Source: Candidatus Syntrophosphaera sp. (GTDB lineage: Bacteria; Cloacimonadota; Cloacimonadia; Cloacimonadales; Cloacimonadaceae). From it: a stretch of DNA of 53,858 bases. Under the pieces are notes generated by a model. That model did no database searches and had not been told where the DNA came from. It was given only the letters and a program-made list of their open reading frames with translations. The stretch spans positions 1 to 53,858 of the forward strand of contig JAHYIU010000007.1 of the NCBI GenBank assembly GCA_019429425.1, given 5' to 3'. This document shows positions 8,312 to 41,202 of this stretch, in pieces (positions within the stretch are counted from its first letter, which is position 1; each line of letters opens with the position of its first letter). The position numbers were made by a program, and so were the translations under genes.

Positions 8312-8663
8312 GGGGGTGACATGGTTTCGACAGGGAATCAGAGTGTGAGAGATGCATGCCGGAGATGCTGTCCTCTCCGTTATCAAGCAGCAAACAAATC
8401 TAATTGCAAACAACAATTACTCCTTAGCAGCGTAAGCTCGCTAACGTTCAACCGTCCCGCGCCGCCGGGGATGGCTTGGGCGTCGCAACAGTGCGGCCGC
8501 TCCGGGTCCGAGAGCTCATAAGATCCGGCTAAGACCATGAGCCCTGGCCCCGGCGGGTCTGATTGTCTTTTACCGCCGGGTCCGAGATCAAAGACAACTA
8601 AGCATGTAGATTCACTCATGATCGGCTCTTTGGACGCGGGTTCGATTCCCGCCACCTCCACCA
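8312..8663 (+). ncRNA. ssrA: transfer-messenger RNA (tmRNA)
   Basis: The 5' end GGGGGTGACATGGTTTCGAC pairs with the 3' end ...CACCTCCACCA, forming the alanine-tRNA-like acceptor stem with encoded CCA. The T arm GCGGGTTCGATTCCCGC is intact. A tag frame lies at 8406-8435: GCA AAC AAC AAT TAC TCC TTA GCA GCG TAA, giving ANNNYSLAA, ending in the usual LAA degron. tmRNA rescues ribosomes stalled on broken mRNAs and tags the nascent chain for proteolysis. Length (352 nt) is normal. Its 3' end is next to the start of an A+T-rich gene cluster; tmRNA genes are common landing sites for islands, but no integrase or repeated 3' end was found. Confidence 0.95.
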
Positions 8664-8816
8664 GCTTTGGCTACTGGTTTTATAGGGTAATGGGCCAATT
8701 CTGCTATTAGTTAACCCTGAATATTGCGTGTTCATTGATCATTACAGTAACCTTGCTGCTTATGGGATTGAAAAAAAGAATTGACAGATTCGAGCAGCAG
8801 AATTATAAGTCTTATT

Positions 8817-10640
8817 ATGCGAAAGATAATAACAGCAAAGAATGGTCCTTTAGTTTTCATAAACCCGAAGGAAATTACTGAATCCAGCGGGAATAAATTT
8901 TCCGTTGATAAACCTTCTGCAGCTTTTTGCCGTTGCGGACATTCAAATAGCAAACCCTTTTGTGATGGAACTCACGGGAAAATCGGCTGGACAAGCGAAA
9001 AACGAGAGGATCGACAACCTCGAAAAGTTGATGATTACAAGGGACAAAAAATCACAATACATGATGATCGTGGAATTTGCGCCCATGTTGGTTTTTGTAC
9101 TGACGGACTTCCCAAAGTATTCCGGATGGGAGTAGAACCCTGGATCGATCCTGATGCCGAGACGGTGGAAAAAATCATCGCAACCATTAAAAAATGTCCT
9201 TCAGGCGCATTGAGTTATTCGATTGACGGTGTAAAATACGACAAATTTTCCACTCAACCCGAAATAGTGGTCACGGAAAACGGGCCATATTTCATTAAAG
9301 GCAGCATTGAGCTCGAGGATGATGACCATCCAGAATCGGAAGAGCATTATGCCCTTTGCCGCTGTGGGAATTCCCAAAACAAACCATTTTGCAACGGACA
9401 ACACTGGCACAGCAAATTCCGCGATGATGGCATAGCCAAAGATGTTGGCCTGAACGAAAACGAAAAAGTGGCCGAAATACAGAAACTTGCTCAAACAGGC
9501 AAAAGCGAAAACTCATCCATGTCAACCTTGCGCGAATATCCCACTTTGGATACGCTGGTTTTTAAAGGTGCGCAATTGCATAAAATGCCGCTCAATGAAG
9601 ATATTCAAGTCAATACTAAAACCATTATCGGTAAAACAGCCAAACATCCTTTGGAATTGGATATGCCGTTTTATGTATCGCACATGTCATTTGGTGCCCT
9701 GTCGCGCGAAGCAAAAATTGCCCTGGCAAGAGGTTCATCGCTTGTTGGAACGGCAACTTGCTCCGGCGAAGGCGGTTTGCTGCCTGACGAGCGTAAAGCT
9801 GCAAAGAAATTCATTTACGAACTTGGCACTGCCTCATTCTCCCACAAAGACGATTCCATCAAGCAAGCCGACGCCGTGGAGATCAAAATCGGCCAGGGAG
9901 TAAAACCAGGTTTGGGCGGACACCTTCCCGGCAACAAAGTTACCGCTGAAATTGCCAAAATTCGCGGACTTGAAAAAGGTGAAGACAGTGTATCACCCGG
10001 ACGGTTATCGGGTGTGGAAAATTTGGACGACCTGAAAAAAATGGTAGCCCACATACGCCAGATTACAGACGGAAGACCCGTGGGCATCAAATTCGCTTCA
10101 GGCCATATTGAAGAAGATCTTGAATTCGCTCTGCAGGCCGAACCCGATTTTATTACCATTGATTGCCGCGGCGGAGCCACAGGTTCTTCACCCAAGTTCC
10201 TGAAGGACAATGTTGGCGTGCCGCCCGTGTTTGCAATTCGACGTGCCCGGAAATACCTGGATGCAAGAGGAAGTACTGTAACACTCTGTATTACGGGAGG
10301 CTTCCGCAATAGCGCTGATATTGCCAAAGCTCTCGCCCTCGGAGCAGATGCCGTTGCTCTGGCCACCGCATCTTTAATATCCATAGGCTGCATACAGGCA
10401 AGAGTTTGTCACACAGGTACCTGTCCGGCAGGGATAACCACCCAAAATGAACAACTGCGCCAACTTTTCGATCCCGAAAACGGTGTGAGAGGTTTTGTTA
10501 ATTTTTTCACTGGCGCCAATAATGAGCTGAAAGTATTTGCGCGCACCAACGGAATCAAAGATGTTCATAACTTCTGTGTAACTGATCTGCTTACCGACAG
10601 TGTTATCGTTTCGCAATTTACTGATATTCAGCATATATAA
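8817..10640 (+). CDS. CDGSH-[4Fe-4S]-CDGSH-FMN glutamate synthase-like fusion
   Basis: 607 aa from the ATG at 8817. A TTG at 8781 would add 12 residues, and neither has a strong ribosome-binding site. Order of domains: CDGSH zinc-finger-like [2Fe-2S] site (Cys38, Cys40, Cys49, His53); divergent single-cluster ferredoxin (Cys88, Cys94, Cys127 in KKCPSGALSY); second CDGSH site (Cys181, Cys183, Cys192, His196); then a complete FMN-binding glutamate synthase barrel from about residue 240 (SHMSFGALSREAKIALARGS, IKIGQGVKPGLGGHLPG, IDCRGGATGSSP). The GltS [3Fe-4S] triad is kept as C-x5-C-x4-C (CIQARVCHTGTC). There is no glutamine amidotransferase domain, so it cannot release ammonia from glutamine itself. 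It shares its N-terminal module with the next gene, 17 bp downstream. Substrate unknown; a redox role in sulfur or amino-acid chemistry is inferred from neighbours. Confidence 0.85.
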   Translation: MRKIITAKNGPLVFINPKEITESSGNKFSVDKPSAAFCRCGHSNSKPFCDGTHGKIGWTSEKREDRQPRKVDDYKGQKITIHDDRGICAHVGFCTDGLPKVFRMGVEPWIDPDAETVEKIIATIKKCPSGALSYSIDGVKYDKFSTQPEIVVTENGPYFIKGSIELEDDDHPESEEHYALCRCGNSQNKPFCNGQHWHSKFRDDGIAKDVGLNENEKVAEIQKLAQTGKSENSSMSTLREYPTLDTLVFKGAQLHKMPLNEDIQVNTKTIIGKTAKHPLELDMPFYVSHMSFGALSREAKIALARGSSLVGTATCSGEGGLLPDERKAAKKFIYELGTASFSHKDDSIKQADAVEIKIGQGVKPGLGGHLPGNKVTAEIAKIRGLEKGEDSVSPGRLSGVENLDDLKKMVAHIRQITDGRPVGIKFASGHIEEDLEFALQAEPDFITIDCRGGATGSSPKFLKDNVGVPPVFAIRRARKYLDARGSTVTLCITGGFRNSADIAKALALGADAVALATASLISIGCIQARVCHTGTCPAGITTQNEQLRQLFDPENGVRGFVNFFTGANNELKVFARTNGIKDVHNFCVTDLLTDSVIVSQFTDIQHI

Positions 10641-10657
10641 GTACCAGGAAAAGATGT

Positions 10658-13258
10658 ATGAAAGAAAATAAAGCAAGTATCAAACCTCAGAAGAACGGAC
10701 CGCTGATAGTAAAGAACCTTGATAAATTCACCAATTCAAGGAATGAAGCGATCGAGATAAAACCTATAATGGTTTTATGCCGTTGCGGAGGGTCAAAAAA
10801 TAAGCCGTTTTGTGATCAAACTCATGCCAGCATAGGTTTTTCCGACGAACGAAGCGAAACTCGTGTACCTGATAGAAAAGACACCTACAAAGGCAGAAAT
10901 ATAACTATTCACGACAACCGCGGTATATGCTCTCACGCCGGCTTCTGTACCGATAACCTTTCCAGCGTTTTCCGCATGGGCAAGGAACCATGGATTGATC
11001 CTAATGGCGCTGATGTGGAGGACATCAAGCTTGTCATTAAAATGTGCCCCTCAGGCGCGCTATCATATACGGAAAACAACCTGGAAACTAATGATTTCTC
11101 AAACGACGAGGAAATACACATCAGAAAAAACGGCCCCTATAACGTACGGGGCGGTATCGTGATCGAAAACGTAGACTTGGGCGATGGTGCTTCAAAAGAG
11201 CACTACACACTTTGTCGTTGCGGGCATTCAGGAAATAAACCCCGCTGCGATGGTACACACTGGTACGCGGCATTTAAAGACGATGAGGGTAAAACCATTT
11301 CTGCCGCTGCACGTAAAACAGAACAGCAAGCACCCGAATGGGTGAAAGTGGCTCAGACTGATGAATTAATGAACGGACAAACCAAAAAACTGAACTTACA
11401 CAATCAGCAGATACTGCTATCGCGGGTTGATGATAAATACGGTGCAATCGAGGGGATTTGTTCACATCAAGGCGGGCCGCTAATTGATGCCAGGATTGAA
11501 GCCAAGATCATTCGTTGCCCCTGGCACGGACATCCTTTTGATCCCCTGAGCGGAAAATCCTTGGGCAACGATGCCAACCTTAAAACTTACAAAACGGATG
11601 TTCGCAGTGATGGCATATACCTGGAAATAGCAGCTCCCGAAAAATCGGCCTGGACGGTAAGCCATGTTCTGGCTGAAACATTTGTTAACTGGGGTATCAA
11701 GCATGTTTTTGGTATGGTCGGGCATTCCAACCTCGGTATTGCGGAAGCTTTTCGTATTCAGGAAGAAAAAGGGAATATCAAATACATTGGGATTCGCCAC
11801 GAAGGAGCGGCAGCTTTTGCAGCGTCAGCTTATTCCAAAATTTCGGGCAAACCCGCAATCTGTTTTTCTATTGCAGGACCAGGCGCCACCAACCTGCTAA
11901 CCGGATTGTGGGATGCTCATATAGACCGCACACCTGTTCTGGCCATTACTGGACAGATTAATACTCAGTTTTTAGGCCCTGGTTCCTTTCAGGAAATTAA
12001 TTTACCGGCAGCCTTTCAAGCTGTTGCGCCGTTCAGCAAAATTGTTATGCCCGACAGCAATCACGCAGCGCTGGCTTCTTTAGCTCTTAAAAATGCCATT
12101 GTTCAACGCAATGTTTCGCATCTGATCGTTCCGGACGATGTTCAAACGCTCGATGCCGGAACCCAGGCACCGGGCGAACCTGATGGGCGGCTTTCCGATA
12201 CTTGTATCGCTCCAGCCCAGGATGCTGTGAATCTCGCCATGTACCGCATTTGGCGAACCCGAAAACCAGCTGTTATCGTTGGCTATGGAGCCAGAAATAG
12301 CATGCCGGAAATTATCGAATTTGCCGAAAAGCTCAGGGCACCCGTATTGACGACTTTCAAGGCCAAGGGGCAGATTTCCGATTCACATCCTCTTGCAGTT
12401 GGTGTATTGGGAAAAAGCGGCACACCTCTTTCCGCCCACTTTATGAATACCGCGGATTTGCTCATAGTATTTGGATCATCCTTTTCTCAACATACCGGTA
12501 TTGACCAAAGCAAGCCTATTATTCAAGTGGACAATGAACAAATGGCACTGGCAAAATTTCATGCCGTTGAGAATCCCATCTGGGGCGATGCAGGGATCAC
12601 TGCCAGATTATTCATCGAGAAATTGGCAAACTATTCACTATCAACAATATCAACCGAGCAAATTGCTGCCAGTAAAGCAGAGTGGAAAGCCAAGAAAATT
12701 GATATGGCTGCAAAGATCGGCACAAATGGGGTGAATTCAAGATTCGTCATTAATGAACTTAGCCGTTTACTGCCCGATAATGCCATCGTTGCGCTTGATG
12801 TTGGGAATAGTACTTATTCATTCGGAAGGTATTTTGAATGCAAAGGCCAGCGGGTTATCTTGTCAGGCTATCTCGGCAGCATCGGCTTCGCATTCCCCGC
12901 AGCCATGGGCGCTTATTTTGCCATGCCCGGTCGTCAAGTGGTTTCGGTTAGTGGCGATGGTGGCTTCGGTCAATACATGACCGAGTTTAACACGGCCGTT
13001 TTGTATAATATGAATATTACGCACATATTACTGAATAACAACGAATTGGGCAAAATATCAAACGAACAACGCGAGGATAAGATCCCGGTCTGGCAAACAA
13101 GATTAAACAATCCGAATTTTGCTGATTATGCCAATAATTGTGGGGGATTAGGTATCCAGGTTACAAAAAGAGCTGATTTGGATCATGCTGTTCGCAAAGC
13201 CCTGGCTTACAATGGTCCCGCGTTGGTGGAAATTATTACCGACCCGCTTCTTACTTAA
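10658..13258 (+). CDS. CDGSH-[4Fe-4S]-CDGSH-Rieske-ThDP enzyme fusion
   Basis: 866 aa; ATG preceded by AGGAAAAG. Residues 1-210 repeat the module of the upstream gene: CDGSH site (Cys41, Cys43, Cys52, His56), one-cluster ferredoxin (Cys91, Cys97, Cys130), CDGSH site (Cys186, Cys188, Cys197, His201). Residues about 225-325 are a Rieske [2Fe-2S] domain with ICSHQGG (Cys268, His270) and CPWHGHPFD (Cys287, His290). Residues about 330-866 are a full thiamine-diphosphate enzyme of the acetolactate synthase/pyruvate oxidase type: RHEGAAAFAASAY (activating Glu), SIAGPGATNLLTGLWDA, and the ThDP/Mg motif beginning at GDG766 and ending NNNEL (about 793-797). It would decarboxylate a 2-oxo acid and pass electrons to the Fe-S chain. 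No FAD-specific motif was identified. The combination is unusual; the substrate is not known. Confidence 0.85.
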   Translation: MKENKASIKPQKNGPLIVKNLDKFTNSRNEAIEIKPIMVLCRCGGSKNKPFCDQTHASIGFSDERSETRVPDRKDTYKGRNITIHDNRGICSHAGFCTDNLSSVFRMGKEPWIDPNGADVEDIKLVIKMCPSGALSYTENNLETNDFSNDEEIHIRKNGPYNVRGGIVIENVDLGDGASKEHYTLCRCGHSGNKPRCDGTHWYAAFKDDEGKTISAAARKTEQQAPEWVKVAQTDELMNGQTKKLNLHNQQILLSRVDDKYGAIEGICSHQGGPLIDARIEAKIIRCPWHGHPFDPLSGKSLGNDANLKTYKTDVRSDGIYLEIAAPEKSAWTVSHVLAETFVNWGIKHVFGMVGHSNLGIAEAFRIQEEKGNIKYIGIRHEGAAAFAASAYSKISGKPAICFSIAGPGATNLLTGLWDAHIDRTPVLAITGQINTQFLGPGSFQEINLPAAFQAVAPFSKIVMPDSNHAALASLALKNAIVQRNVSHLIVPDDVQTLDAGTQAPGEPDGRLSDTCIAPAQDAVNLAMYRIWRTRKPAVIVGYGARNSMPEIIEFAEKLRAPVLTTFKAKGQISDSHPLAVGVLGKSGTPLSAHFMNTADLLIVFGSSFSQHTGIDQSKPIIQVDNEQMALAKFHAVENPIWGDAGITARLFIEKLANYSLSTISTEQIAASKAEWKAKKIDMAAKIGTNGVNSRFVINELSRLLPDNAIVALDVGNSTYSFGRYFECKGQRVILSGYLGSIGFAFPAAMGAYFAMPGRQVVSVSGDGGFGQYMTEFNTAVLYNMNITHILLNNNELGKISNEQREDKIPVWQTRLNNPNFADYANNCGGLGIQVTKRADLDHAVRKALAYNGPALVEIITDPLLT

Positions 13259-13339
13259 TCTAGGATAGCGAATTTTAATGAATAGCATGAGAAATAATGT
13301 TCAAAGGATTATAAACTCAAATGACAAGCGAGGAAAAAG

Positions 13340-14629
13340 ATGAAAATTATATCAACCCAAGAGCTACGCTCACTAATAGAAAAGAATAACGTGAAAATAA
13401 TCGATGTGCGTCCCGTGGATGCCTACAATGGATGGCAGTTACAGAGAGAAAAACGTGGCGGACACATCAAAGGGGCAAAATCATTGTCGGACAAGTGGAC
13501 AGACTATCCGAACTGGATCGATATTGTTCGCCAAAAAAACATTTCACTTGATGATGAATTGGTGATCTACGGCTATACAAGCGAAGGAACGCAAAACGTG
13601 GCAAAAATGTTTCAAAAGTCAGGTTATAATAATATCTCTGTGTATGATTCGTTTTTATCTGAATGGGTGATGAACGAAGAATTGCCCATGGACTACCTTC
13701 CGAATTACAAAAATCTGGTTCCGGCCGAATGGGTGAAACAGCTCATTTCAGGTGCAAGGCCGCAACATTACAACAATGATAAATATATAATTGTCCATGC
13801 CCATTATCGCAACCGCGACGCCTATTTGAGCGGACATATACCCGGCGCTGTAGACATGGACACACTGGCGCTGGAAGCCCCCGAAACATGGAACCGCCGC
13901 TCCCCGGAAGAACTCAAGGCTGCCCTCGAAGCGCATGGTATCACTGCCAACACCACCGTGGTCCTATACGGAAAATTCATGTTCCCGGATAATAACGATG
14001 AATTTCCTGGCAGAGCGGCTGGCAATATCGGCGCGATCCGTTGTGCCTTGATCATGATGTATGCCGGGGTAAAAGATGTCAGGATCATCAACGGAGGATT
14101 TCAATCATGGCATGACGCAGGATATCAAGTGGATACCGATGATTTGCCGAAAAAACCGATTGCCGATTTTGGGGCAATAATTCCACAACATCCTGAATTG
14201 ATCGTGGATATTGACGAAGCCAAACTAATGCTGAAGGCCACTGATGCAGAATTGGTTTGCGTGCGCAGCTATCCCGAATACACTGGCGCGGTCAGCGGAT
14301 ATAATTATATCAAAGTTAAAGGCCATATACCAGGAGCGATATTTGCAGATTGCGGAAGCGATGCCTATCATATGCAAAACTACCGCAATGTTGACAACAC
14401 CATCCGTGAGTTTCATGAAATCGACCAAATATGGAGTAATTTAGGAGTCACTCCCGACAAACACCTGGCATTTTACTGTGGAACAGGTTGGCGGGGCAGC
14501 GAAGCCTGGTTCAATGCGTGGTTGATGGGTTGGCCCAGGATTTCCGTTTTCGATGGAGGTTGGTTTGAGTGGAGCAATGATCCTACGAATCCGATCGAAA
14601 CAGAAATACCACAGAAATATTTGCGGTAG
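13340..14629 (+). CDS. eanB: EanB-like trimethylhistidine sulfurtransferase (three rhodanese domains)
   Basis: 429 aa. Three rhodanese domains: about 1-120, 125-275 and 280-425. Only the third has an active-site cysteine: Cys380 in FYCGTGWRGSE. The equivalent loops of domains 1 (YGYTSEGTQ) and 2 (YGKFMFPDNNDE) have none. Chlorobium EanB, which converts hercynine (N-trimethylhistidine) plus polysulfide to ergothioneine without oxygen, is a multi-rhodanese protein. From memory, it uses one C-terminal cysteine (Cys412, in a CGTGWR loop) and Tyr353. At the same offset of 32 this protein has Tyr321. An EgtD-type methyltransferase gene two genes downstream (EanA) supports the call. A plain thiosulfate or 3-mercaptopyruvate sulfurtransferase is the alternative. 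ATG with GAGGAAAAAG upstream. Confidence 0.78.
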   Translation: MKIISTQELRSLIEKNNVKIIDVRPVDAYNGWQLQREKRGGHIKGAKSLSDKWTDYPNWIDIVRQKNISLDDELVIYGYTSEGTQNVAKMFQKSGYNNISVYDSFLSEWVMNEELPMDYLPNYKNLVPAEWVKQLISGARPQHYNNDKYIIVHAHYRNRDAYLSGHIPGAVDMDTLALEAPETWNRRSPEELKAALEAHGITANTTVVLYGKFMFPDNNDEFPGRAAGNIGAIRCALIMMYAGVKDVRIINGGFQSWHDAGYQVDTDDLPKKPIADFGAIIPQHPELIVDIDEAKLMLKATDAELVCVRSYPEYTGAVSGYNYIKVKGHIPGAIFADCGSDAYHMQNYRNVDNTIREFHEIDQIWSNLGVTPDKHLAFYCGTGWRGSEAWFNAWLMGWPRISVFDGGWFEWSNDPTNPIETEIPQKYLR

Positions 14630-14633
14630 ATCC

Positions 14634-16004
14634 ATGCTTAATTATGCTGCTATTATAATAGGTTCGGGACAAGCTGGCACACCGTTGGCTTTTAAATATG
14701 CCTTAAACAAAAAGAAAGTGGCTTTTATCGAAAAAAAGCATTTTGGAGGGACTTGCCTGAATGTTGGATGCACTCCAACCAAGGCATATGTGGCAAGCGC
14801 TAAAAGGGCTTTTGATATCCAGCGTGCTGAAACACTTGGCATTGGCGTACCCACAGATTCAAAAGCGAATCTCGATAAGATCAAAGCACGCAAGGACGCG
14901 CTCATCCAAAAATCGGTTAACGGGCTTGCTTCATCACTTGAAGGGAGCCAATACATTGATGTTTATAAAGGTGAAGCACGGTTTGGCGGCCCCAAGGTTG
15001 TTGAAGTGAACGGCAAATCGCTTACTGCTGAAAATATATTCATCGATGTGGGCGCAAGGGCCAGAATCCCTGAAGGTTTTGAAAATGTAGATTACCTGAC
15101 CAATGAAGATATTTTGGGACTTACGGAAATCCCTGAACATCTTTTGATCGTGGGCGGAAGTTACATAGGCCTCGAGTTTGGACAAATGTTCAGGCGTTTT
15201 GGGAGCAGAGTCACCATAATTGAAAAAAACGACCGTTTGATAGCATATGAAGATGAAGATGTTTCGGAAACCATCCAGGAGATCCTCGAGGAAGAGGGCA
15301 TCGAATTCAGGTTCAATTCTGACTGCATTGGGGCATCTCAATCCGCGCCAGGGCATATTAAGGTTAAAACGGACTGCGATGGCGCTGGGGATGAAATTTT
15401 AGGAACGCATCTTTTGCTTGCTGTAGGACGCGTACCCAATACTGATCTACTGAATCTGGAAGCTGCGGGCATCAAAACCAACGCCAGAGGCTATATAGTG
15501 GTGGATGATCGCCTGCAAACCAATATCGAAGGTGTTTACGCTTTGGGCGATTGCAACGGGAAAGGCGCGTTCACGCATACTGCCTATAATGATTATCAAA
15601 TTGTTTCAGCAAATATACTTGAAAACGGAAACCGGAAAGTGACTGACCGAATTCAAACCTACGCATTGTTTATCGACCCACCCCTGGGACGGGCAGGCAT
15701 GACCCTGGCCGCAGCCAAAATAGCCGGTAACAAGGTAAAAACAGCCGAGTATCAGATGGCAAACGTTGCCCGGGCCCGTGAAAAAGGAGAAACCAAAGGA
15801 TTTATGCGCATCATCATCGATAGTGATACCGACAGAATTCTGGGTGCTTCAATCTTGGGTGTGGGTGGAGATGAGTCGATCGCAAGCATTTTGAATGTGA
15901 TGTATGCCGATAAACCATACACGCTAATTCGTGACTCGGTGCATATCCATCCCACGGTTTCCGAGCTGATACCGACCATGCTGGAAAAAACGAAATATGA
16001 GTAA
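14634..16004 (+). CDS. FAD/NAD(P) disulfide oxidoreductase (MerA/Lpd-like)
   Basis: 456 aa from the ATG at 14634, 4 bp after the rhodanese gene; an upstream in-frame start lies inside that gene and is rejected. FAD motif GSGQAG at residues 10-15. The redox-active pair Cys41/Cys46 lies in FGGTCLNVGCTPTKAYV. The NAD(P) motif is LLIVGGSYIGLEFGQM. The second FAD motif is VYALGDCNGKGAFTHTAYND. The dimer-interface base His439-Pro-x3-Glu444 is in HIHPTVSELIP. The family includes lipoamide dehydrogenase, mercuric reductase and glutathione-type reductases; the extra metal-binding cysteines of MerA are absent at the C-terminus. Its place between EanB and EanA suggests it reduces a persulfide, polysulfide or disulfide linked to ergothioneine sulfur insertion, but this is inference. 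Confidence 0.85.
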   Translation: MLNYAAIIIGSGQAGTPLAFKYALNKKKVAFIEKKHFGGTCLNVGCTPTKAYVASAKRAFDIQRAETLGIGVPTDSKANLDKIKARKDALIQKSVNGLASSLEGSQYIDVYKGEARFGGPKVVEVNGKSLTAENIFIDVGARARIPEGFENVDYLTNEDILGLTEIPEHLLIVGGSYIGLEFGQMFRRFGSRVTIIEKNDRLIAYEDEDVSETIQEILEEEGIEFRFNSDCIGASQSAPGHIKVKTDCDGAGDEILGTHLLLAVGRVPNTDLLNLEAAGIKTNARGYIVVDDRLQTNIEGVYALGDCNGKGAFTHTAYNDYQIVSANILENGNRKVTDRIQTYALFIDPPLGRAGMTLAAAKIAGNKVKTAEYQMANVARAREKGETKGFMRIIIDSDTDRILGASILGVGGDESIASILNVMYADKPYTLIRDSVHIHPTVSELIPTMLEKTKYE

Positions 16005-16146
16005 ACCAAATTTGCTGGAACCATTTCCCGGTTTATCCTGTTTGCTGCCGATGGCTGGATGTTATGCCCTTTCCTCGCACTTTTCCTTGGTTGGAGTTCC
16101 CAAGGCGGATATCCTGATCAATGGTTTTGTATATGATGCATTGTAA
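15997..16146 (+). CDS. Possible 49-aa small protein between flavoprotein and EanA
   Basis: An ATG overlapping the end of the flavoprotein gene opens a frame of 49 codons: MSKPNLLEPFPGLSCLLPMA, then GCYALSSHFSLVGVPKADIL, then INGFVYDAL. It ends inside the 5' part of the EanA gene in another frame. Two cysteines and several hydrophobic residues are visible; I recognise no family. The tight overlap on both sides suggests a translated link in the operon. It could equally be a non-coding spacer or the decayed start of a longer protein. Confidence 0.35.
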   Translation: MSKPNLLEPFPGLSCLLPMAGCYALSSHFSLVGVPKADILINGFVYDAL

Positions 16147-17137
16147 AGAGAACCTCGAGATTTGCAGTGACCAAATAGTAATTGAAGACTACCTTCAAGA
16201 GCTTGATATAAGTACCATTAGAAATGATATTATCTTGGGATTGTCGGCACAAGACAAGCACATTTCCAGTAAATATTTCTATGATGAAAAGGGCTCTGCA
16301 TTATTTGAGAAAATAACCCTGTTACCCGAGTATTATCCAGCACATTGCGAAAAGGAGATCCTTCGAAAATTGGACATCAGCTTTATTCCCGATTTCAAGG
16401 ATTTGAACATCTGGGAGCTGGGCAGTGGAGACCATACCAAAATATCATTGATAATTGATCGTATCCCCGTGCGCCACCAAAATTCCCTAATCTATCATCC
16501 CGTTGACATCAGTAGATCAGCTATGCAGCTTGCTGCAATCAAACTGCTTGAAATATATCCGGATATCAGGATCTGCGGTATTGTCGCTGATTTTATGCAC
16601 CAGTTGGACGTAATATCTCATGGAAGTAATTGCCTTTTATGTTTTTTGGGTGGCACAATTGGCAATTTTACCTTACAAGAAAGGTCGGATTTTCTAGCTA
16701 ACATGCATCATATCATGAACGATGGCGATTTTTTTCTGCTGGGTGTCGATACCGTTAAAAGCCGGCAGGTGCTTTATGATGCTTATAACGACAAACAGGG
16801 CATAACCGCTGCTTTCAATCTCAATATTCTAAACGTTGTCAACACACTGTGCAAGACTGATTTCAACTCGGAGGATTTCGAACATATCGCTTTATTCAAT
16901 GAAGATAAAAAACGAATTGAGATGTATCTTGAAGCGCGGACTGACATTTTGGTAAAAAGCCCTTTTACACCGAACGAAATCAAGATTAGAAAAGGGGAGC
17001 GAATCCACACCGAGAATTCCCATAAATTCGATGATGAGATGATTATGCAAATGGTTGAGACCTCCGGATTTCGTGTTTCAAAGGTTTTTAGCGATGATAA
17101 CGCCTGGTTTAAAGTGATCCTATTCCACAAGGCTTGA
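16121..17137 (+). CDS. eanA: L-histidine N-alpha-methyltransferase (EgtD/EanA)
   Basis: 338 aa from the ATG at 16121; ATGs at 16133 and 16136 are also in frame. It belongs to the EgtD family, which makes hercynine from histidine with three SAM. Conserved parts: KYFYDEKGSALFEKIT, LPEYYPAHCEKEIL, the SAM loop ELGSGDHTK, FLGGTIGNFT (Asn182), DAYNDKQGITAAFN (Tyr222) and ERIHTENSHKF (Glu298, Ser300). The spacing Asn-40-Tyr-76-Glu-2-Ser is exactly that of the substrate-binding residues recalled for mycobacterial EgtD (Asn166, Tyr206, Glu282, Ser284). No EgtB (oxygen-dependent sulfoxide synthase) gene is near; the rhodanese gene upstream gives the anaerobic route. Methylation yields S-adenosylhomocysteine, which ahcY at 20819 would remove. 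Confidence 0.9.
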   Translation: MVLYMMHCKENLEICSDQIVIEDYLQELDISTIRNDIILGLSAQDKHISSKYFYDEKGSALFEKITLLPEYYPAHCEKEILRKLDISFIPDFKDLNIWELGSGDHTKISLIIDRIPVRHQNSLIYHPVDISRSAMQLAAIKLLEIYPDIRICGIVADFMHQLDVISHGSNCLLCFLGGTIGNFTLQERSDFLANMHHIMNDGDFFLLGVDTVKSRQVLYDAYNDKQGITAAFNLNILNVVNTLCKTDFNSEDFEHIALFNEDKKRIEMYLEARTDILVKSPFTPNEIKIRKGERIHTENSHKFDDEMIMQMVETSGFRVSKVFSDDNAWFKVILFHKA

Positions 17138-17162
17138 ATTATCTTAATCCGAGAGGAGGCCA

Positions 17163-17456
17163 ATGAACAGGCCCAAAGTAATTCTATATGTTTGTGCTTC
17201 AGTTGATGGGAGAATCACGTTTGGGCCCAACACCACCATGTTTGACATCTATAAACAGCCTGAGCTTTATCAAATGCTGATGAATGAGGAAGAGTGGAAC
17301 AGCTTTTCCAAGGCGGTTTTTGCCCTTCACAAGCCTGACATGTATCTTGAGGGGAGCAACATGCTTGTGGCTGAATGCGAGGAACTGAAAGAGCTGCCCA
17401 AATACGGCGGCGGCATTAATGGCCTGTATGAGGATTTTTTCCCGCTGACATTGTGA
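17163..17456 (+). CDS. RibD-type reductase, N-terminal piece
   Basis: 97 aa; GAGAGGAGG lies just before the ATG. MNRPKVILYVCASVDGRITF is the first strand and loop of the RibD C-terminal/dihydrofolate-reductase-like fold that binds NADPH and reduces pyrimidine intermediates in riboflavin synthesis. It ends at TGA where relatives, as I recall them, continue without a break, and the next frame picks up the fold at once. The GTG of that frame overlaps this stop (GTGA, 17453-17456). Either a true split gene with coupled translation or a one-base frameshift (mutation, sequencing error or programmed). Confidence 0.65.
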   Translation: MNRPKVILYVCASVDGRITFGPNTTMFDIYKQPELYQMLMNEEEWNSFSKAVFALHKPDMYLEGSNMLVAECEELKELPKYGGGINGLYEDFFPLTL

Positions 17457-17932
17457 ACCGCCCGGGAAGGAAAACATGGACGGCTGTGGTTGACGGTAGA
17501 GGCAGGTTCAGGAATGGATACACGGCGAACACCGATGATCCGGAAACTTACATGGTCCACTTGACGGCTGAAACTGCTCCACCTGAATATCTGGCATTCT
17601 TGCGTTCCAGAAACATACCCTATCTTGTGGCAGGAAAAGGAAGGGTGGATCTTTCTGCAATGTTGCGCAAGGTAAAGGAAAAACTCAGGGTGGAAACAAT
17701 CGTGACCAGCTCCGGTGGGCGTTTGAGCGGAGCTCTGATCAGGAGTTCCCTTTTGGACGAGGTTAACATTCTTCTCAGCCCAATTGTCATTGGCGGTTTT
17801 TCCACTCCAACCCTCTTTTCCTCCCCGGATCTTAGCTGGCCATCGATCATGCCAAACAAACTCGCCCTCATGGAAACCAAAACATTGATGAATGACAAGG
17901 TTTGGCTAAGGTACAAGGTGGTCTATGATTAA
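17453..17932 (+). CDS. RibD-type reductase, C-terminal piece
   Basis: 159 aa starting at a GTG. It continues the fold: GRKTWTAVVDGRGRFRNGYT, PEYLAFLRSRNIPYLVAG, TIVTSSGGRLSGALIRSSLL, DEVNILLSPIVIGGFSTPTL. The pattern TSSGGxLxGALxxxxLxDE is that of RibD_C reductases (5-amino-6-ribosylamino-uracil reductase type). Together with the 97-aa piece the length (about 256 aa) matches a single-domain reductase. A deaminase domain and other riboflavin genes are absent, so the substrate is open. It is the last gene of the A+T-rich cluster; rpsO follows after about 115 bp. Confidence 0.7.
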   Translation: MNRPGRKTWTAVVDGRGRFRNGYTANTDDPETYMVHLTAETAPPEYLAFLRSRNIPYLVAGKGRVDLSAMLRKVKEKLRVETIVTSSGGRLSGALIRSSLLDEVNILLSPIVIGGFSTPTLFSSPDLSWPSIMPNKLALMETKTLMNDKVWLRYKVVYD

Positions 17933-18046
17933 GAAAGGGCAACCACCTTGCTTGAAGCTTATCCGAATTGGCGGGGCTGAGCAGAAAATGCTTTACAAAT
18001 AACCCTGTCCCAAAATGCTGGGTACAAAATTCATCTGGAGGATGAA

Positions 18047-18316
18047 ATGCCACTTAAACCTGAGGCCAAAACGGCTATCATGGCAGAGTTTAAACTCCAT
18101 GAATCAGACACCGGCTCGCCGGAAGTCCAGGTTGCCCTGCTGAGCAAGAGGATCAACGAGATCACCTTGCATCTGAAAGAGCATCCGAAGGACTTCAGTA
18201 CCAGGCGCGGGCTGTTGAAACTGATCGGGCAGAGAAGGCGCCTTCTTGATTATCTGAAACGGAAAGACATTACCCGCTACCGTGAACTGATCAAGGCGCT
18301 GAACATCCGCAAATAA
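18047..18316 (+). CDS. rpsO: 30S ribosomal protein S15
   Basis: 89 aa, the standard length. [20 protein letters not shown] and [20 protein letters not shown] are the core of S15, which binds 16S rRNA helices h20-h22 at the platform and bridges to 23S rRNA. The initial M is preceded by CTGGAGGATGAA, a strong ribosome-binding site. rpsO-pnp is a widely conserved gene pair, and pnp follows at 18513. Confidence 0.98.
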
Positions 18317-29672: not shown

Positions 29673-32600
29673 ATGCTCAAATCTTGTATCCTTCTCGCAT
29701 TGATCCTGTTCCTGACAGGTGTTGCGGGGGCTTCGGAGTTTTATCCCCGCCTCTATATCGAAGGATACAACCCCCTCATCTACAACACGGTCGACATCCA
29801 TAAACTGTATAAAGGCCTGAATTACGCGAGCAGCCAGCCATACCTGATCCGTGACTTTGCCCCGGAAACGGTGGAAGAGATCGATTTTGATAACGACAAG
29901 GTCATCATAACCACCCGGGTGGGCGGATATGAGCTTGTTCCGGGCCGGACCCTAAGCTTCGGCACCTACTTTTCCAACCTGCAGCAAAAGACCTTCCGCC
30001 AATCCCTGATCGGCAGATACAAAACCCAGGCCCAGCGAACTGACGTCACCACCACCGGCCTGATCAAGGAATTTGTGCTGGAGCTTCCCACGATCGCCAT
30101 GCCCCGTTCCGTGCAAAGGGTTTTGGGTTCCTCCGCCGGCAGATTGAATCTGGACGGAACGCAGAAAGTGATGCTGGAAGCCGGCAGCACGAAACGGAAA
30201 AACGTTGCCATCTACGAAACCGACAACGCCAGCCGCTTCGACATCAAGATGGAGCAGGAAACAAACCTGCGCCTGTCCGGAACGATCGGCGAAAAGATCG
30301 CCGTGAACCTGAAATACAACAGCAAGCAGGACGAGCAGTTTTTCGATCCCAACAACGTCAGCATCAAATACACCGGCGACGAGGACGAGGTCATCCAATC
30401 CATCGAGGCCGGAAACATCACCCTGTCCCTCGCAGGATCACGCTATATCAGCTATTCCACCTCCTCGCAGGGCTTGTTTGGGGTCACGTCCAAGTTCAGA
30501 TATGGAAATCTGGACCTGACGGTTATCGCCAGCAAGGAAGAAGGCCAGAAAAACACACAAAGCTACATCGGCACCAGCCAGGCCGATTCCACCATTTTCC
30601 GCAGCCGGGATTACGCCTCCCGGACCATGTACTATCTCGAAGACCCCTATGACCTGTATGAGCTATATAGCCAGGAAGATGTTTCGCCAAACGTTCCGCA
30701 GGGTTGGGTGGACAACGCGATCAAGACCAGCCCCAGCGGCGCCTGGTACATCAAGAGCCCGGAGCTGCTGCCCGAGAACGGCACCGTGCGGGTGTTCATA
30801 GATGATGCCAACGCCAACAACAACGTGGCTTCGGCTGTGGGCGACACCATCTTTTTCAGCCCCACGGATTATTACGTTCCCTATTACGATGAATTGATCG
30901 AGGGCACTGACTTCGTGACCGACTACACCGCCGGCATCATCCAGATCAAGAAGGTCATTGACCGCAGGACCACGATCGCCGTCAAATACGTGAACCGGGC
31001 CGGACTGCCGGTTCCCCCGAACAGCGATGAACAGGACGGCGTCCTGCATGCCAAGGTGATCCGCCGCCGCAACCAGGAGTATGACCCCACCGATCCCAAC
31101 AATGTTTGGCACTACCAGATGCGCAACGTCTACAACATGAACAAGACCAACATCAAGAACGACGGATTCAGCCTGGAGATCTATACCGTCAACGTGAACC
31201 TGACGCGCAATTATCTGGTCCCGGATTCCCTATCCGTGCCCGGCGTAATCACCTACAACGATTATTTGCGAATGGACAGTACCGGCGACGGCCTGATCAA
31301 CGGCGACGACACCACGGTCAACCTGACCACCGGGCTCGTCATCATTCCAATGATCCAGCCCTTTGATCCTTTGGGCGACGGCATCATCTACCGGGATGAA
31401 AACGAGAGCATCAGCTATCTGGACATCAGCTTCTTCATGTCGGTCAAAGGCAAGATCGGACGTGAGGCGGTGGACCTGATGCAGGGCGGCATCCTCAAAG
31501 GCAGCGTGGTGGTGAAAGTCAACGGGGTCGAGCAAAGGGAGAACGTAGATTACCTGGTTGATTACGATTTTGGCCGGATCACATTTTTGACGTCCGCCGG
31601 CAAAGACCCGGACGCCAAGATCGAGATCGACTATGAGTATCGCAGCGCTTTCGAGATAGCCAGCAAGACCCTGGCCGGGGTGCGGGCAAACTGGAATCTG
31701 ACCGATTACGCCAAGCTGGGCGGAACTTTGATCTATCGCTCCGAAAACGTGGCCGACCGCCGGCCCCGGATCGGCAACGAAAACATCGAGATGATCATGG
31801 CCAACGTGGATGGCACCCTCACTTACAAACCCGCTTTCATGACCCGCTGGATCGACGCCCTGCCCCTGATCAGCACCAGCGCGGAAACACGCATCACGCT
31901 GTCCGGCGAGATAGCCTACACCATACCCAACATCTACGGAGATCCCAACGGCAAGAAGAAGGAAGCTTTCCTGGACGACATGGAATCGATCGTGGATTCC
32001 TATCCCATGGGCGTTACGATCGGCTCCTGGGTCATGGGGAGCAAGCCTTGGAACACTTCTCTGGCCAAGGGCAGGACGATCTGGTACAATCCCAAGAACA
32101 TCCGCCGGGAACAGATTGAAGACCCGGCCACGCTCACGGAAAGGGAGAAGAAGGAAACGGTGACGGTTTTGGCCCTGAAGGTCTTCCCCAGCAACCTCGG
32201 CATGCCCGGATCGAACGCCTGGAGCTGGGGCGGGGTGATGAAATACCTGGGCAACCAGCTTGATTTTTCCCAGAAAAAGTATATTGAACTGCTCGTCAAG
32301 GTGGACGTCAATCCCGGCGATCCGGTCCCCAATCCCGTCATGCGGATCGACCTGGGTGACATCAACGAGGATTTCTACACCGAGTTTGGCGGATTGAACG
32401 TCCTCAACAGCGAGGACAAAAACAATGACGGAGTCCTTACCCTGGAAGAAGATACTGGCCTGGACGGCATTTTCCACGGCCAGCCCGGAGCCGACCCCAA
32501 TGACCTGGCTTCCAACGAGATCGACCAGTTTGGCGATTATCCAAACATCAACGGCACCGAGGGCAACCGGGTGCTGGATACGGAGGACCTGGACGGAAAC

Positions 32601-35600
32601 GGGGTTTTGAACACCCTGGACCGTTATTTCAGCTATTCATTTTCGCTCTCCGATTCGCTCTACCTGGAAAACGTCAACCACGACGGCTGGCGCCTTTACC
32701 GCATACCCATCACCGATCCCAACGTCTACCAGATCGTCAACAATTCAACGGCCGGAGTGGCGCCCAGCCTCAAAAAGATCTCCTATGGCCGCATCGTTTT
32801 GGAAACAGACCAGACCGCCAGGGTCCTGATCTCCGATATCTCCGTGATCGGCAACAAGTGGCAGGATTTTTACGTGCGCACCTTGGACAACCAGATCCTG
32901 CCGGACGCCCTGGTCAACACCTACAACACGACCTATCTCTCCGGAATTGTCAATAACCAGAAGAACAGCGCCCATTACACCTCGCCCGAGGGTTCTTTCT
33001 ACATCGAATCGCGCCGCGAATCCAGCGAATCGGCGCTCACCCTGGCGGTGCAAAACCTCCAGCCGGGCCACCAGGTCCTGCTGCGCCAACGCTTGTTCGA
33101 TCCCTACAGCCTGCTCTCCTACGGAAGGATCAAGTTTTGGGTCTATCCCGAGGCCCGGGAAAGCAATCCCCTCAATCCGGATTCCATCGACGTCGTGTTC
33201 CGGGTCGGGGCCGACAGCCTGAATTACTACCAGATCCGCGAACGCGTGCCCGTGCTGCCCTATCTCGCCAAGATGGAGAGGGACATGTGGATGGAGTTTA
33301 CCTATGACCTGCAGGACGTAACCTCCCTGAAAGAGATCGATCCGGACGCGACGAGCGGCGAAAGCGCGAGCGGCTCGACGGTCTACAGTTTCCAGGGCAA
33401 CCCCACCCTGACCAACGTCCGGGACATTTATCTGGGTGTTTATTCGCCCGACGACCTGCCTCTGCCCACACCCTTCAACGGGACTCTCTATTACAATGAC
33501 CTCCGGGTCACGGAACCCTTTGAGGACGTTGGCATGGCCAGGCGGCTCTCGCTGAATTCCGTCTTTGCCGACCTGAGCACCCTGGACATCGATTACGAGG
33601 AAAAGAGCGAGAATTTCAATACCATCATCCAGCGTGGAAGGGCCAATACCTTCACCAGTTCCAGAACGCTCAACATGATGAACAAGTATTTCCTCAACAA
33701 GCTCTTTCCCAATTCCTGGGGTCTGGACATTCCCATCAGCCTGACCCGCAACTACACTCTCGGGATCCCGCGCTTCCGCGCCAATTCCGACCTCCTGCGC
33801 GAAAAGATCACCGATCCCGGGGAAAAGCACCGCGAACGCAACGAATCCTTGCTCTACGCGGCCGATTTCGGCTTCAGCCAGAGGACCGCGCCCAAGTCCA
33901 AGATCCTCGCTTACACGGTCTACCGCAGTTCGATCAGCGGCCGGATCGAACAATCATACCGGCACACCCCCACAGCGGTGGACACCACTTTCCTCTGGCG
34001 CGGCACCTATAACTACAACATCAGCTTCCCCAGCGACAAGGTCAGCTTCAAGCTGTTCAAGAACTATCGCCTGGGATTTTTCCCCACCACCTGGAACAAC
34101 AGCCTCACCCTCAACAACACCGAACCCCTAAGCTGGAACTGGGAAAGGCGCGAGGGTGCCTATGGCTGGCAGCCCCGCACCCAGACCGTGCCCACCAAAC
34201 TCCTGGCCACCGACACCAACATCAACTGGGGCCTCACTTCCGACATCGCGCTCACAGCCAGGCTGAACAGCAAGCGGGACCTCAAACAGAAAGAATACCT
34301 CCAATCCATAAATGTCGGCAAGCTCACCGAGTATGTGCAGGACCTCGGATTGAACTACAATCCCAATTACCTGCGGCAATACATCAATTTCACCGCCAGC
34401 GGCGGGACGCGCTTCTCGGAAATGCAGCGCAAATACTACCAAAACACCGACCAGGGGCAGATCGAGGTCTATCAGAGCGATGGGAATGCCAACCGCACCC
34501 TGCGCATGAACCTGACCCTGATGAATTCGCCCCTGCTGGCCTCATTGGCGTCCAAACTTGCCGCTGCCAAGCCTGCTGGCGAGATCAAGCCCCAAGACGC
34601 TCTGCAGCCTCCCAAAGACGAGCTCAAGGGTGGGGGAGACCCTTCCGAGGATGACAAGAAACGCCGGGATGACGAACAGCGGAAGCTGGAAGAGCAGAAG
34701 AAGCTGGAAGAGCAACTGCGCGAGGAAGAAAAGCTGAAAATGGAGAAGGAGCTCAAGGAACACGACGAATTCCCCCAGGAGGGGGAACCCAAGGAAGAGG
34801 GGGAACCCAAAGAAGAGGGGGAACCCAAAGAAGAGGGGGAACCCAAAGAAGAGGGGGAACCCAAAGAAGAGGGGGAACCTCCCTCTGATGAGCCCGACAA
34901 GGAGTTTGAGCCGGTAGACGAAGACTTGCCCGAGGATCTGAAGAAACTGCTGGAAATCCCGGAAGACGACGCCAAACCCGAAGACAAGGTCGAGCCGGGA
35001 GACAAAGCCCCGTCCCGGTCGATAAATTTCCCGGCCGTGATCGTCGGATATCTGGCCAAGCTGAAGAACGTCACCATTTCGATGCAGAATTCCTACGTCC
35101 AGGCCTATTCCCAAAAGAATGACCGCCCGCCTTTCCTCTTCCAGTTGGGAGTGCCGCATGCCGTGGATGGCGAATACCTTGATTCCGTCACCAACGACAA
35201 CACCCTCTCGCTTTCCAGCGGCGTGGCCTTCTCCCGCAAGCTGGACAGCGTCATGAGCTATTCCTATACGATCAACAAGCATTACGCCAACGCCTCGAAC
35301 CAGTCCATCGCGGTCACTTTCCCGGATGTGACCCTTACCCTGCTGGACATTGGCGACCTGGTCGGCCTGGGAAAATATGTCTCCAGCACCCGACTGAACA
35401 CGGGATTCCAATACACCGTCCGTTCCAGCGGCGACGTGGACTGGGTCGAGCCCAAGCAGGAAACCAGGACCATATCCCTGAATCCCTTGGTCGGCCTGGC
35501 CGGAACGCTTTTCAAGAACCTCAGCACCAATCTCAGCTATTCCATCAATTCCGGCGAAAACATCACCGACATGGATTCCTACGACATTATCAAGACCACC

Positions 35601-35936
35601 TTCACCCAGGCCATGAATGGCAACCTGTCCTATTCCTTCCGCAGTGGCCGGGGATTCACGGTGCCCTTCACCAAAAACAAGATCCATATCCGCAACGAAC
35701 TCACCTCCAGCATGTCTTTCCTCTATGAGAACAGCTTCGACGAGACCTTCGGCCGCGAATCCTCCCAGGTTGACCGCCAAACCCAGCGCATCGCCATCAC
35801 CCCCAGCGCCACCTACCAGTTTGACGCCAACATCCGGGGCGGGCTGACCGGAACCTGGGAAAAGACCGAGGACAAAAAGCGCGACACCGGGCTCCGCACC
35901 TTCAGGGTCGGCGTCTGGGTGGAAGTCAACCTCTAA
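29673..35936 (+). CDS. sprA: SprA-like giant outer-membrane protein
   Basis: 2087 aa with signal peptide MLKSCILLALILFLTGVAGA. SprA (Sov) forms the 36-strand outer-membrane pore of the type IX secretion system in Bacteroidota. Here the SprA N-terminal pattern (GRLNLDGTQKVMLEAGSTKR, DIKMEQETNLRLSGTIGEKI) is followed by long beta-rich stretches. Typical SprA blocks follow: KKEAFLDDMESIVDSYPMGV and NPKNIRREQIEDPATLTERE (domain about residues 750-830), then a series of amphipathic strands to a C-terminus ending VGVWVEVNL, a usual OMP end. A charged insert at about residues 1640-1770 holds the EGEPKE tandem repeat (34779-34880) and a Lys/Glu-rich coiled-coil-like run. Calcium-loop-like 'DKNNDGVLTLEED' and 'DLDGNGVLNTLDRY' are also seen. 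Proteins with T9SS-like tails occur in the window, so a secretion role fits. Confidence 0.82.
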   Translation: MLKSCILLALILFLTGVAGASEFYPRLYIEGYNPLIYNTVDIHKLYKGLNYASSQPYLIRDFAPETVEEIDFDNDKVIITTRVGGYELVPGRTLSFGTYFSNLQQKTFRQSLIGRYKTQAQRTDVTTTGLIKEFVLELPTIAMPRSVQRVLGSSAGRLNLDGTQKVMLEAGSTKRKNVAIYETDNASRFDIKMEQETNLRLSGTIGEKIAVNLKYNSKQDEQFFDPNNVSIKYTGDEDEVIQSIEAGNITLSLAGSRYISYSTSSQGLFGVTSKFRYGNLDLTVIASKEEGQKNTQSYIGTSQADSTIFRSRDYASRTMYYLEDPYDLYELYSQEDVSPNVPQGWVDNAIKTSPSGAWYIKSPELLPENGTVRVFIDDANANNNVASAVGDTIFFSPTDYYVPYYDELIEGTDFVTDYTAGIIQIKKVIDRRTTIAVKYVNRAGLPVPPNSDEQDGVLHAKVIRRRNQEYDPTDPNNVWHYQMRNVYNMNKTNIKNDGFSLEIYTVNVNLTRNYLVPDSLSVPGVITYNDYLRMDSTGDGLINGDDTTVNLTTGLVIIPMIQPFDPLGDGIIYRDENESISYLDISFFMSVKGKIGREAVDLMQGGILKGSVVVKVNGVEQRENVDYLVDYDFGRITFLTSAGKDPDAKIEIDYEYRSAFEIASKTLAGVRANWNLTDYAKLGGTLIYRSENVADRRPRIGNENIEMIMANVDGTLTYKPAFMTRWIDALPLISTSAETRITLSGEIAYTIPNIYGDPNGKKKEAFLDDMESIVDSYPMGVTIGSWVMGSKPWNTSLAKGRTIWYNPKNIRREQIEDPATLTEREKKETVTVLALKVFPSNLGMPGSNAWSWGGVMKYLGNQLDFSQKKYIELLVKVDVNPGDPVPNPVMRIDLGDINEDFYTEFGGLNVLNSEDKNNDGVLTLEEDTGLDGIFHGQPGADPNDLASNEIDQFGDYPNINGTEGNRVLDTEDLDGNGVLNTLDRYFSYSFSLSDSLYLENVNHDGWRLYRIPITDPNVYQIVNNSTAGVAPSLKKISYGRIVLETDQTARVLISDISVIGNKWQDFYVRTLDNQILPDALVNTYNTTYLSGIVNNQKNSAHYTSPEGSFYIESRRESSESALTLAVQNLQPGHQVLLRQRLFDPYSLLSYGRIKFWVYPEARESNPLNPDSIDVVFRVGADSLNYYQIRERVPVLPYLAKMERDMWMEFTYDLQDVTSLKEIDPDATSGESASGSTVYSFQGNPTLTNVRDIYLGVYSPDDLPLPTPFNGTLYYNDLRVTEPFEDVGMARRLSLNSVFADLSTLDIDYEEKSENFNTIIQRGRANTFTSSRTLNMMNKYFLNKLFPNSWGLDIPISLTRNYTLGIPRFRANSDLLREKITDPGEKHRERNESLLYAADFGFSQRTAPKSKILAYTVYRSSISGRIEQSYRHTPTAVDTTFLWRGTYNYNISFPSDKVSFKLFKNYRLGFFPTTWNNSLTLNNTEPLSWNWERREGAYGWQPRTQTVPTKLLATDTNINWGLTSDIALTARLNSKRDLKQKEYLQSINVGKLTEYVQDLGLNYNPNYLRQYINFTASGGTRFSEMQRKYYQNTDQGQIEVYQSDGNANRTLRMNLTLMNSPLLASLASKLAAAKPAGEIKPQDALQPPKDELKGGGDPSEDDKKRRDDEQRKLEEQKKLEEQLREEEKLKMEKELKEHDEFPQEGEPKEEGEPKEEGEPKEEGEPKEEGEPKEEGEPPSDEPDKEFEPVDEDLPEDLKKLLEIPEDDAKPEDKVEPGDKAPSRSINFPAVIVGYLAKLKNVTISMQNSYVQAYSQKNDRPPFLFQLGVPHAVDGEYLDSVTNDNTLSLSSGVAFSRKLDSVMSYSYTINKHYANASNQSIAVTFPDVTLTLLDIGDLVGLGKYVSSTRLNTGFQYTVRSSGDVDWVEPKQETRTISLNPLVGLAGTLFKNLSTNLSYSINSGENITDMDSYDIIKTTFTQAMNGNLSYSFRSGRGFTVPFTKNKIHIRNELTSSMSFLYENSFDETFGRESSQVDRQTQRIAITPSATYQFDANIRGGLTGTWEKTEDKKRDTGLRTFRVGVWVEVNL
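34779..34880 (+). repeat. In-frame 18-bp tandem repeat in sprA
   Basis: Five full copies of an 18-bp unit (GAGGGGGAACCCAAAGAA; the first differs by one base) and a partial sixth encode EGEPKE x5 then EGEPPS. The copies are almost identical at the DNA level, so the array is young and probably length-variable by slippage. It lies in a charged, probably periplasmic loop. Confidence 0.95.
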
Positions 35937-40620: not shown

Positions 40621-40875
40621 GCAGGCTGTAGCGAAACCCGCCGCAGGTGGGGTGCAGGACAATAGGCCCGGGATTTATCCTGGGTGTTTGTGTGGTATAT
40701 GCTTCTAAGATTAATTCCCCACCCCTCCTCAAACACAGATTTGATCTGTGTTTGGGGAGGGGGGGGGGGAGGGGCCATAATAAACAAAATACGCACGCTT
40801 TTAATACGACGGCTAAAGCCGCCGCCTATATTCCTTCACCCCACCTGCGGCGGGGTTTGTCAGCAGGCTGAGCCC
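40621..40875. repeat. Modular inverted-repeat element 2
   Basis: CAGGTGGGGTGCAGGACAAT (from 40644) on the left and GCCTATATTCCTTCACCCCA (from 40824) on the right are inverted copies. The similarity continues outward (CGGCGGG.TTT...CAG.CTG). The centre 40725-40759 is a 16-bp stem (CTCCTCAAACACAGAT and its complement, with one G-T pair). Its ends and centre match element 1 at 36106. Confidence 0.7.
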
Positions 40876-40892
40876 CGGAGGGGCGATAAAAC

Positions 40893-41062: not shown

Positions 41063-41202
41063 AATATGCCGCTCCTGCGGAGCTTCGCCGACGAGGACGT
41101 CGGCGTTCCCAAGCGCAGCCTTTCCACCAGAATTAATCCTCGCTGATCTGCTCTTTTATCCGCGCCGATCCGCGTGAAACAAAGAAAAACAAGGAGGAAA
41201 AT

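Follow-up and report, generated by a model that had tools for sequence, protein, structure and literature searches.

We analyzed a 53,858-nucleotide stretch of Candidatus Syntrophosphaera sp. (contig JAHYIU010000007.1; hereafter, the window) and found that it carries a gene cluster that, judging by homology and conserved residues, almost certainly encodes ergothioneine biosynthesis through the EanA/EanB route. The same run of genes encodes two iron-sulfur (Fe-S) fusion enzymes, one built on a glutamate synthase-like FMN domain (the GltS-like fusion) and one on a thiamine diphosphate (ThDP) enzyme resembling pyruvate oxidase (the ThDP fusion), together with an FAD-dependent disulfide oxidoreductase. 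The gene order and the distribution of the relatives of these fusions suggest a link between ergothioneine and an as yet uncharacterised redox system. The six genes named in the initial annotation were all confirmed at their places on one strand of the run 8817-17932, in the order GltS-like fusion, ThDP fusion, EanB, FAD enzyme, EanA and RibD-like gene, with intergenic gaps of 4 to 116 bp (Table 1).

Table 1. Features of the window in and around the ergothioneine cluster
Feature	Position	Strand	Basis and remarks
tmRNA (ssrA)	8312..8663	+	ARAGORN, Rfam RF00023; left boundary of the island
Low-GC island, about 9.36 kb	8669..18024		GC drop and sister-genome comparison; holds the whole cluster
CDGSH-Fer4_19-CDGSH-GltS-like FMN fusion, 607 aa	8817..10640	+	Pfam zf-CDGSH, Fer4_19 and Glu_synthase; motifs; site residues
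CDGSH-Fer4_19-CDGSH-Rieske-ThDP (pyruvate oxidase-like) fusion, 866 aa	10658..13258	+	Pfam, NF006377, PDB 3eya
EanB, polysulfide-dependent ergothioneine synthase (predicted), 429 aa	13340..14629	+	PDB 6ktv match, invariant residues
FAD/NAD(P)H disulfide oxidoreductase (MerA/Lpd/mycothione-reductase-like)	14634..16004	+	NF004992
EanA, histidine N-alpha-methyltransferase (EgtD family; predicted)	16121..17137	+	TIGR03438, EgtD structures
RibD_C-like reductase, two overlapping frames	17163..17932	+	RibD_C in the second half only
rpsO	18047..18316	+	Right flank; DNA 88% identical and colinear in sister genome G025

EanB, EanA and the enzymes encoded with them

The window's EanB aligned with Chlorobium EanB (PDB 6ktv) over its full length and without gaps (residues 4-425, 684 bits, E 9e-205), and Pfam recognized three rhodanese stretches in it. 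The initial annotation had named an ordinary sulfurtransferase lacking the Tyr321/Cys380 pair as the finding that would overturn its proposal; both residues are present, and the Tyr and the CGTGWR loop were invariant in 110 of 110 relatives. We take these residues to be the published Tyr353 and Cys412 of Chlorobium EanB, which is consistent with the occurrence of a Tyr-to-Phe variant structure among the PDB matches. A sulfurtransferase of the YnjE or mercaptopyruvate type that makes no ergothioneine would have the fold in common, and YnjE was indeed the next PDB match. However, YnjE reached 300 bits and ordinary rhodaneses and mercaptopyruvate sulfurtransferases at most 85 bits, the Tyr and the Cys loop do not vary, and EanA lies beside the rhodanese here, as it does in the majority of EanB loci, which makes this explanation hardly credible. 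A plasmid search for EanB returned only YnjE-like and clostridial or fusobacterial rhodaneses.

EanA scored 333.7 bits with TIGR03438 (cut-off, 290.9) and aligned with EgtD structures across the TIGN, AYxD, IEM and TExSxKF segments, retaining the EgtD substrate residues as initially proposed. EanA and EanB yield ergothioneine from histidine, S-adenosylmethionine and polysulfide; in the window, EanA would trimethylate histidine to hercynine, and EanB would thiolate hercynine with polysulfide or persulfide sulfur. Chlorobium limicola possesses the same two enzymes (Clim_1148/1149), with full-length homology and the catalytic Tyr and Cys kept. In the window, the pathway lies in a tmRNA-linked island together with a ThDP/GltS/FAD redox set, for which we found no account in papers on the known pathway. 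Bacillus licheniformis makes ergothioneine with a Bacteroidales EanA and an EanB-like enzyme that is 38% identical to Chlorobium EanB, and EanA and EanB alone suffice in this heterologous host (PMC11767532). Because that more distant EanB-like enzyme works, the predicted function of the window's pair is very likely.

In each of the two fusions, a pair of CDGSH motifs (CxCxxSxxxPxCxxxH) flanks a Fer4_19 domain, which places them in class II of the CDGSH proteins. The ThDP fusion has a Rieske motif (CSH...CPWH) besides these modules and a complete ThDP enzyme part, and no CDGSH, Rieske or 3Fe-4S ligand motif is disrupted. The GltS-like fusion, which probably starts at ATG 8817, shares with GltB and ferredoxin-dependent glutamate synthase (Fd-GltS) the core of the FMN domain, the CX5CX4C 3Fe-4S motif with its three cysteines, and the equivalents of Glu903, Lys966, Lys972 and Arg992 (Synechocystis Fd-GltS as reference). 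It differs from them in lacking the glutaminase domain, in a His at the position of Gln978 (so in each of the 31 GltS-like rows), and in the loss of the PPPHHD loop, which is missing from the CDGSH fusions and from nearly all other GltS-like rows. The roles of these positions are assumed from Fd-GltS, where Gln978 and the loop are presumably part of the 2-oxoglutarate pocket. The site residues and a score of 147 bits with NF008730 (cut-off, 1047) rule out an ordinary glutamate synthase, and because Gln978 is replaced and the loop is gone, this name is unsuitable despite the shared fold family. The structure model of the fusion was poor (mean predicted local distance difference test score (pLDDT) 58, and below 50 in the N-terminal part) and was not used.

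The closest similarity of the ThDP fusion is to pyruvate oxidase, with PoxB as its best PDB match. Unlike PoxB, it carries N-terminal CDGSH, Fer4_19 and Rieske modules, has no C-terminal membrane tail, and scores below the curated cut-offs, since its best NCBIfam match, NF006377, gave 404 bits (cut-off, 742) and all pyruvate oxidase and PoxB models fell short as well. The start of the FAD enzyme was corrected to an ATG 4 bp past the end of EanB. This enzyme passed the cut-off of NF004992, "FAD-containing oxidoreductase" (634 versus 629 bits), and stayed below those of MerA (TIGR02053, 313 versus 454 bits) and of the Lpd models; it is related to mycothione, glutathione and lipoamide disulfide reductases.

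The last gene of the run, initially listed as a split RibD-like reductase, is present but is probably a broken passenger. A T6 run (17435-17440) splits it between frames, apparently through a one-base frameshift, and none of the fetched EanB loci showed a relative of this gene beside EanB; both points rule it out as a member of the module. The T6 run would look the same after a recent frameshift, an assembly error or slippage. A haloarchaeal neighbour annotated as "dihydrofolate reductase" was a true DHFR_1 protein and not RibD_C.

Linkage and co-occurrence with ergothioneine genes

The initial annotation had called for a check of whether the neighbourhood recurs elsewhere, and it does. Among 80 EanB loci from GTDB genomes, many of them on short contigs, EanA lay near EanB in 60, and 15 had a GltS-like or ThDP fusion no more than 9 kb from EanB (Bacteroidota, Ignavibacteriota and others). 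One locus (L166) holds EanB, the FAD enzyme, a TauE-type exporter (TSUP), EanA, GltS, a family that we call X286, and ThDP in a single run, and so matches the window in its core set. The linkage of the Fe-S fusions to EanB and EanA is therefore genuine in other genomes, as is, more rarely, that of the flavoprotein, whose orthologues adjoin EanB or EanA in L007, L016, L161 and L166. Two types of N-terminus were found on the catalytic pair: CDGSH-Fer4_19-CDGSH (the window, L009, L012, L029, L059 and L062) and a single Rieske domain (L008, L019, L032, L033, L044, L054 and others). This swap on both partners suggests that what counts in the Fe-S part is its capacity to carry electrons and not a specific fold. 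Stand-alone GltS genes (L156-L160) are split from the Fe-S-fused ones in the tree.

Since the fetched loci had been found through EanB, we tested whole genomes. An order sample that is unbiased with respect to EanB (247 genomes, the order of G129) contained EanB in 31, the GltS-like enzyme in nine and the ThDP enzyme in five. EanB was present in eight of the nine GltS-positive genomes (Fisher p 2e-7, kinship ignored), and the ninth carries a stand-alone GltS without the Fe-S N-terminus (L160). All five ThDP-positive genomes had both EanB (p 2e-5) and GltS (p 8e-9), so that ThDP is nested in GltS. A phylum sample of 396 genomes gave a different picture: the Rieske-ThDP enzyme occurred in ten, all Bacteroidota, and none of these had EanB, so that an obligate link to EanB is refuted. 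However, EgtD was present in eight of the ten, compared with 13 of 70 controls from the same sample (p 2e-4, kinship ignored; the controls were taken as ThDP-negative since the sample listed ten positives only). EgtB, well above its cut-off, adjoins EgtD in seven of the eight, and the eighth has an EgtA-like neighbour. By gene order, the two genomes without EgtD are near-identical sisters, and G650 and G771 likewise appear closely related; because of such sisters, independent events are fewer than the counts. The aerobic EgtB/EgtD pathway, which is not in the window, thus likewise co-occurs with the Rieske-ThDP enzyme, although its sulfur chemistry is unrelated to that of EanB. Therefore, the redox pair tracks ergothioneine across two pathways that are not related, and it does not serve as a helper of EanB. 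Because it follows both EanB and EgtB, the common factor is likely ergothioneine itself or its oxidative-stress lifestyle.

Relatives of the pair also occur outside these genomes. Four haloarchaeal plasmids (L172, L174, L175 and L176) all carry a Rieske-ThDP gene (approximately 52% identical), and three carry a Rieske-GltS-type gene, in islands that also hold TauE-type, DUF3179 and MerA- or Lpd-type genes. The ThDP enzyme is found on a Mycobacteroides plasmid as well, and CDGSH-GltS lies near Dps on Vibrio plasmids; ergothioneine genes were not seen on any of these three groups of plasmids. All of the wider contexts point to a redox or stress role. In two EanB-less Bacteroidota loci (L235, 10478-11503; L236, 5533-6573), a ferric-reductase-like transmembrane and Rieske protein is encoded beside Rieske-GltS and Rieske-ThDP and is a possible membrane electron acceptor.

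Several other neighbours of EanB were recorded. The commonest after EanA is a DUF427 gene, near EanB in 26 of the 80 loci (93 aa in L007, 13647-13925). X286 is a DUF5996-like family with an invariant WPHHFD motif, located between or beside GltS, ThDP and EanB (L166, 6529-7332; L161, 9287-10084; L165, 5677-6474; L048, 9101-9925; and others); its AlphaFold model was confident (pLDDT 92) but matched no PDB fold at E<=0.001 and gave no functional clue. A SufS-like cysteine desulfurase and SufE directly follow EanB-EanA in L084 (8297-12251), L085 (4541-8504) and L079 (5854-9842), a different type of EanB operon that suggests cysteine persulfide as the sulfur source. In several Bacteroidota (L007, 2302-5601, and others), genes that read as an extracytoplasmic function (ECF) sigma factor, a small anti-sigma-like protein, a peroxiredoxin-like protein and a DoxX-like protein lie 5′ of EanB, which suggests putative stress control.

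The tmRNA-rpsO island

The cluster occupies a region in which the GC content falls from approximately 0.57 (flanks, 0.53-0.60) to 0.41-0.48. G025 is the closest sister genome within the genus (pnp 87% identical); its tmRNA and rpsO are just 694 bp apart, and it lacks the cluster. Colinearity with G025 breaks at approximately 8668, about 5 bases past the tmRNA, and at approximately 18025, and in place of the island of about 9.36 kb, G025 has about 0.67 kb of other sequence. EanB was absent from every other genus member examined. In the sample of the window's phylum, EanB turned up in just two further genomes (G056 and G061; loci L084 and L085), which form a pair of their own in the EanB tree, whereas the nearest rows to the window's EanB are Bacteroidota; the GltS-like fusion groups with Bacteroidota and a "Deferribacteres" metagenome-assembled genome. 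We read the island as an independent horizontal acquisition of an operon for oxygen-independent ergothioneine synthesis. No attachment site or direct repeat of the tmRNA 3′ end was found at the island and no integrase was seen inside it, and promoter and terminator scans gave matches no commoner than in shuffled sequences.

Elsewhere in the window, two Acido-Lenti-1 RNA matches above the gathering score lie in opposite orientation about 120 bp apart (40871-40916, minus strand; 41039-41084, plus strand), and 29673-35936 encodes a 2087-aa protein with a SprA_N match (gliding or type IX secretion-related).

Possible roles of the redox pair

We propose a putative mechanism in which the ThDP fusion would oxidise a pyruvate-like 2-oxo acid. 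Because this fusion is without the membrane tail of PoxB, the electrons would leave through its Rieske, CDGSH and Fer4_19 clusters, and the probable receiver would be the GltS-like partner, with its matching clusters and its FMN/3Fe-4S site. With NAD(P)H as the reductant, the FAD enzyme may act on ergothioneine disulfide or on polysulfide. The module would spend metabolic electrons on stress protection where ergothioneine is a low-molecular-weight thiol. A further reading, which we hold to be less likely than not, is that the two Fe-S-fused enzymes form an undescribed two-component electron-transfer system working with ergothioneine, whether made by EanB (in anaerobes) or by EgtB (in aerobes), in which ergothioneine might be a reductant, an acceptor or a protected thiol. 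That the module enzymes act chemically on ergothioneine itself we consider rather doubtful. For the broader proposal, that the ThDP/GltS pair is functionally linked to ergothioneine physiology, the arguments for and against seem to us evenly balanced. We are likewise undecided, leaning neither way, on whether the cluster may combine an ergothioneine operon and a conserved redox module into one stress-protection system.

Several observations weigh against such a link. Neither GltS nor ThDP was nearby in 65 of the 80 EanB loci, although many of these contigs are short, and the FAD enzyme lies next to EanB or EanA in few loci only. The haloarchaeal plasmids carry the pair with no EanB or ergothioneine gene seen on them, the putative 2-oxoglutarate pocket of the GltS-like enzyme is altered at both Gln978 and the PPPHHD loop, and the co-occurrence counts ignore phylogeny and include close sisters. 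The ThDP, GltS and FAD enzymes could then be a stand-alone module against stress or redox agents such as peroxide, nitric oxide or metal, co-selected or co-regulated with ergothioneine genes and never touching ergothioneine. This is a substantial possibility, though one we do not favor. In its support, the module is present without EanB in the ten Bacteroidota genomes and beside MerA, TauE and DUF3179 genes on haloarchaeal plasmids, and a CDGSH-GltS gene lies near Dps in Vibrio. However, eight of those ten EanB-less genomes have EgtD, with EgtB alongside in seven, and in Bacteroidales-like genomes the pair is tightly linked to EanB and EanA.

The initial annotation had proposed, as one of two options, that the flavoprotein and the Fe-S enzymes supply persulfide sulfur or electrons to EanB. 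Their adjacency on one strand, the need of EanB for a sulfane-sulfur donor, and the desulfurase and SufE genes that follow EanA elsewhere, which indicate that EanB operons do recruit sulfur suppliers, all agree with this proposal. Nevertheless, Pfam found no desulfurase or rhodanese domain in either fusion, EanA and EanB were enough in B. licheniformis (PMC11767532), and the pair occurs with EgtB as well as on the haloarchaeal plasmids. We dropped supply by the fusions as the leading explanation because the module occurs without EanB, and now consider supply to EanB improbable. The companion proposal, ergothioneine as a redox partner, is favored but not proven by the EgtB/EgtD association. A cluster that breaks down or otherwise exploits ergothioneine, as a source of nitrogen or sulfur or as an electron acceptor, with EanB running in the salvage direction, would account for the GltS-like FMN enzyme, the disulfide reductase and the TauE-type exporter of related loci. 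We regard it as very unlikely, since neither an ergothionase-type lyase nor enzymes of thiourocanate were found in the cluster by Pfam and NCBIfam, whereas EanA, a committed biosynthetic enzyme, is present.

The EanA/EanB pathway was already known. The joining of a CDGSH domain to a glutamate synthase domain had also been described, for class II CDGSH-Fer4_19 proteins with the architecture of our first fusion; the part of that account available to us covers architecture and phylogeny, with neither an ergothioneine link nor a ThDP partner fusion (PMC5859297). The initial annotation took the combination as a whole to be undescribed, and a literature search that covered few subscription papers agrees with this: it turned up no account of the combination, the ThDP fusion, the pair, the link to ergothioneine, or a dedicated ergothioneine redox partner.

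Overall, the island shows, on our reading, an anaerobic pathway travelling between phyla as a single unit. Three enzymes are linked to ergothioneine biosynthesis, and for the Fe-S pair the link shows in gene order as well as in co-occurrence with two unrelated routes. What ergothioneine does physiologically, especially in anaerobes, has yet to be settled (PMC9516567); the linked enzymes provide concrete candidates, open to experiment, for how cells use it. If the proposed two-component system is real, the pair and the adjacent disulfide reductase would constitute a dedicated ergothioneine redox cycle.

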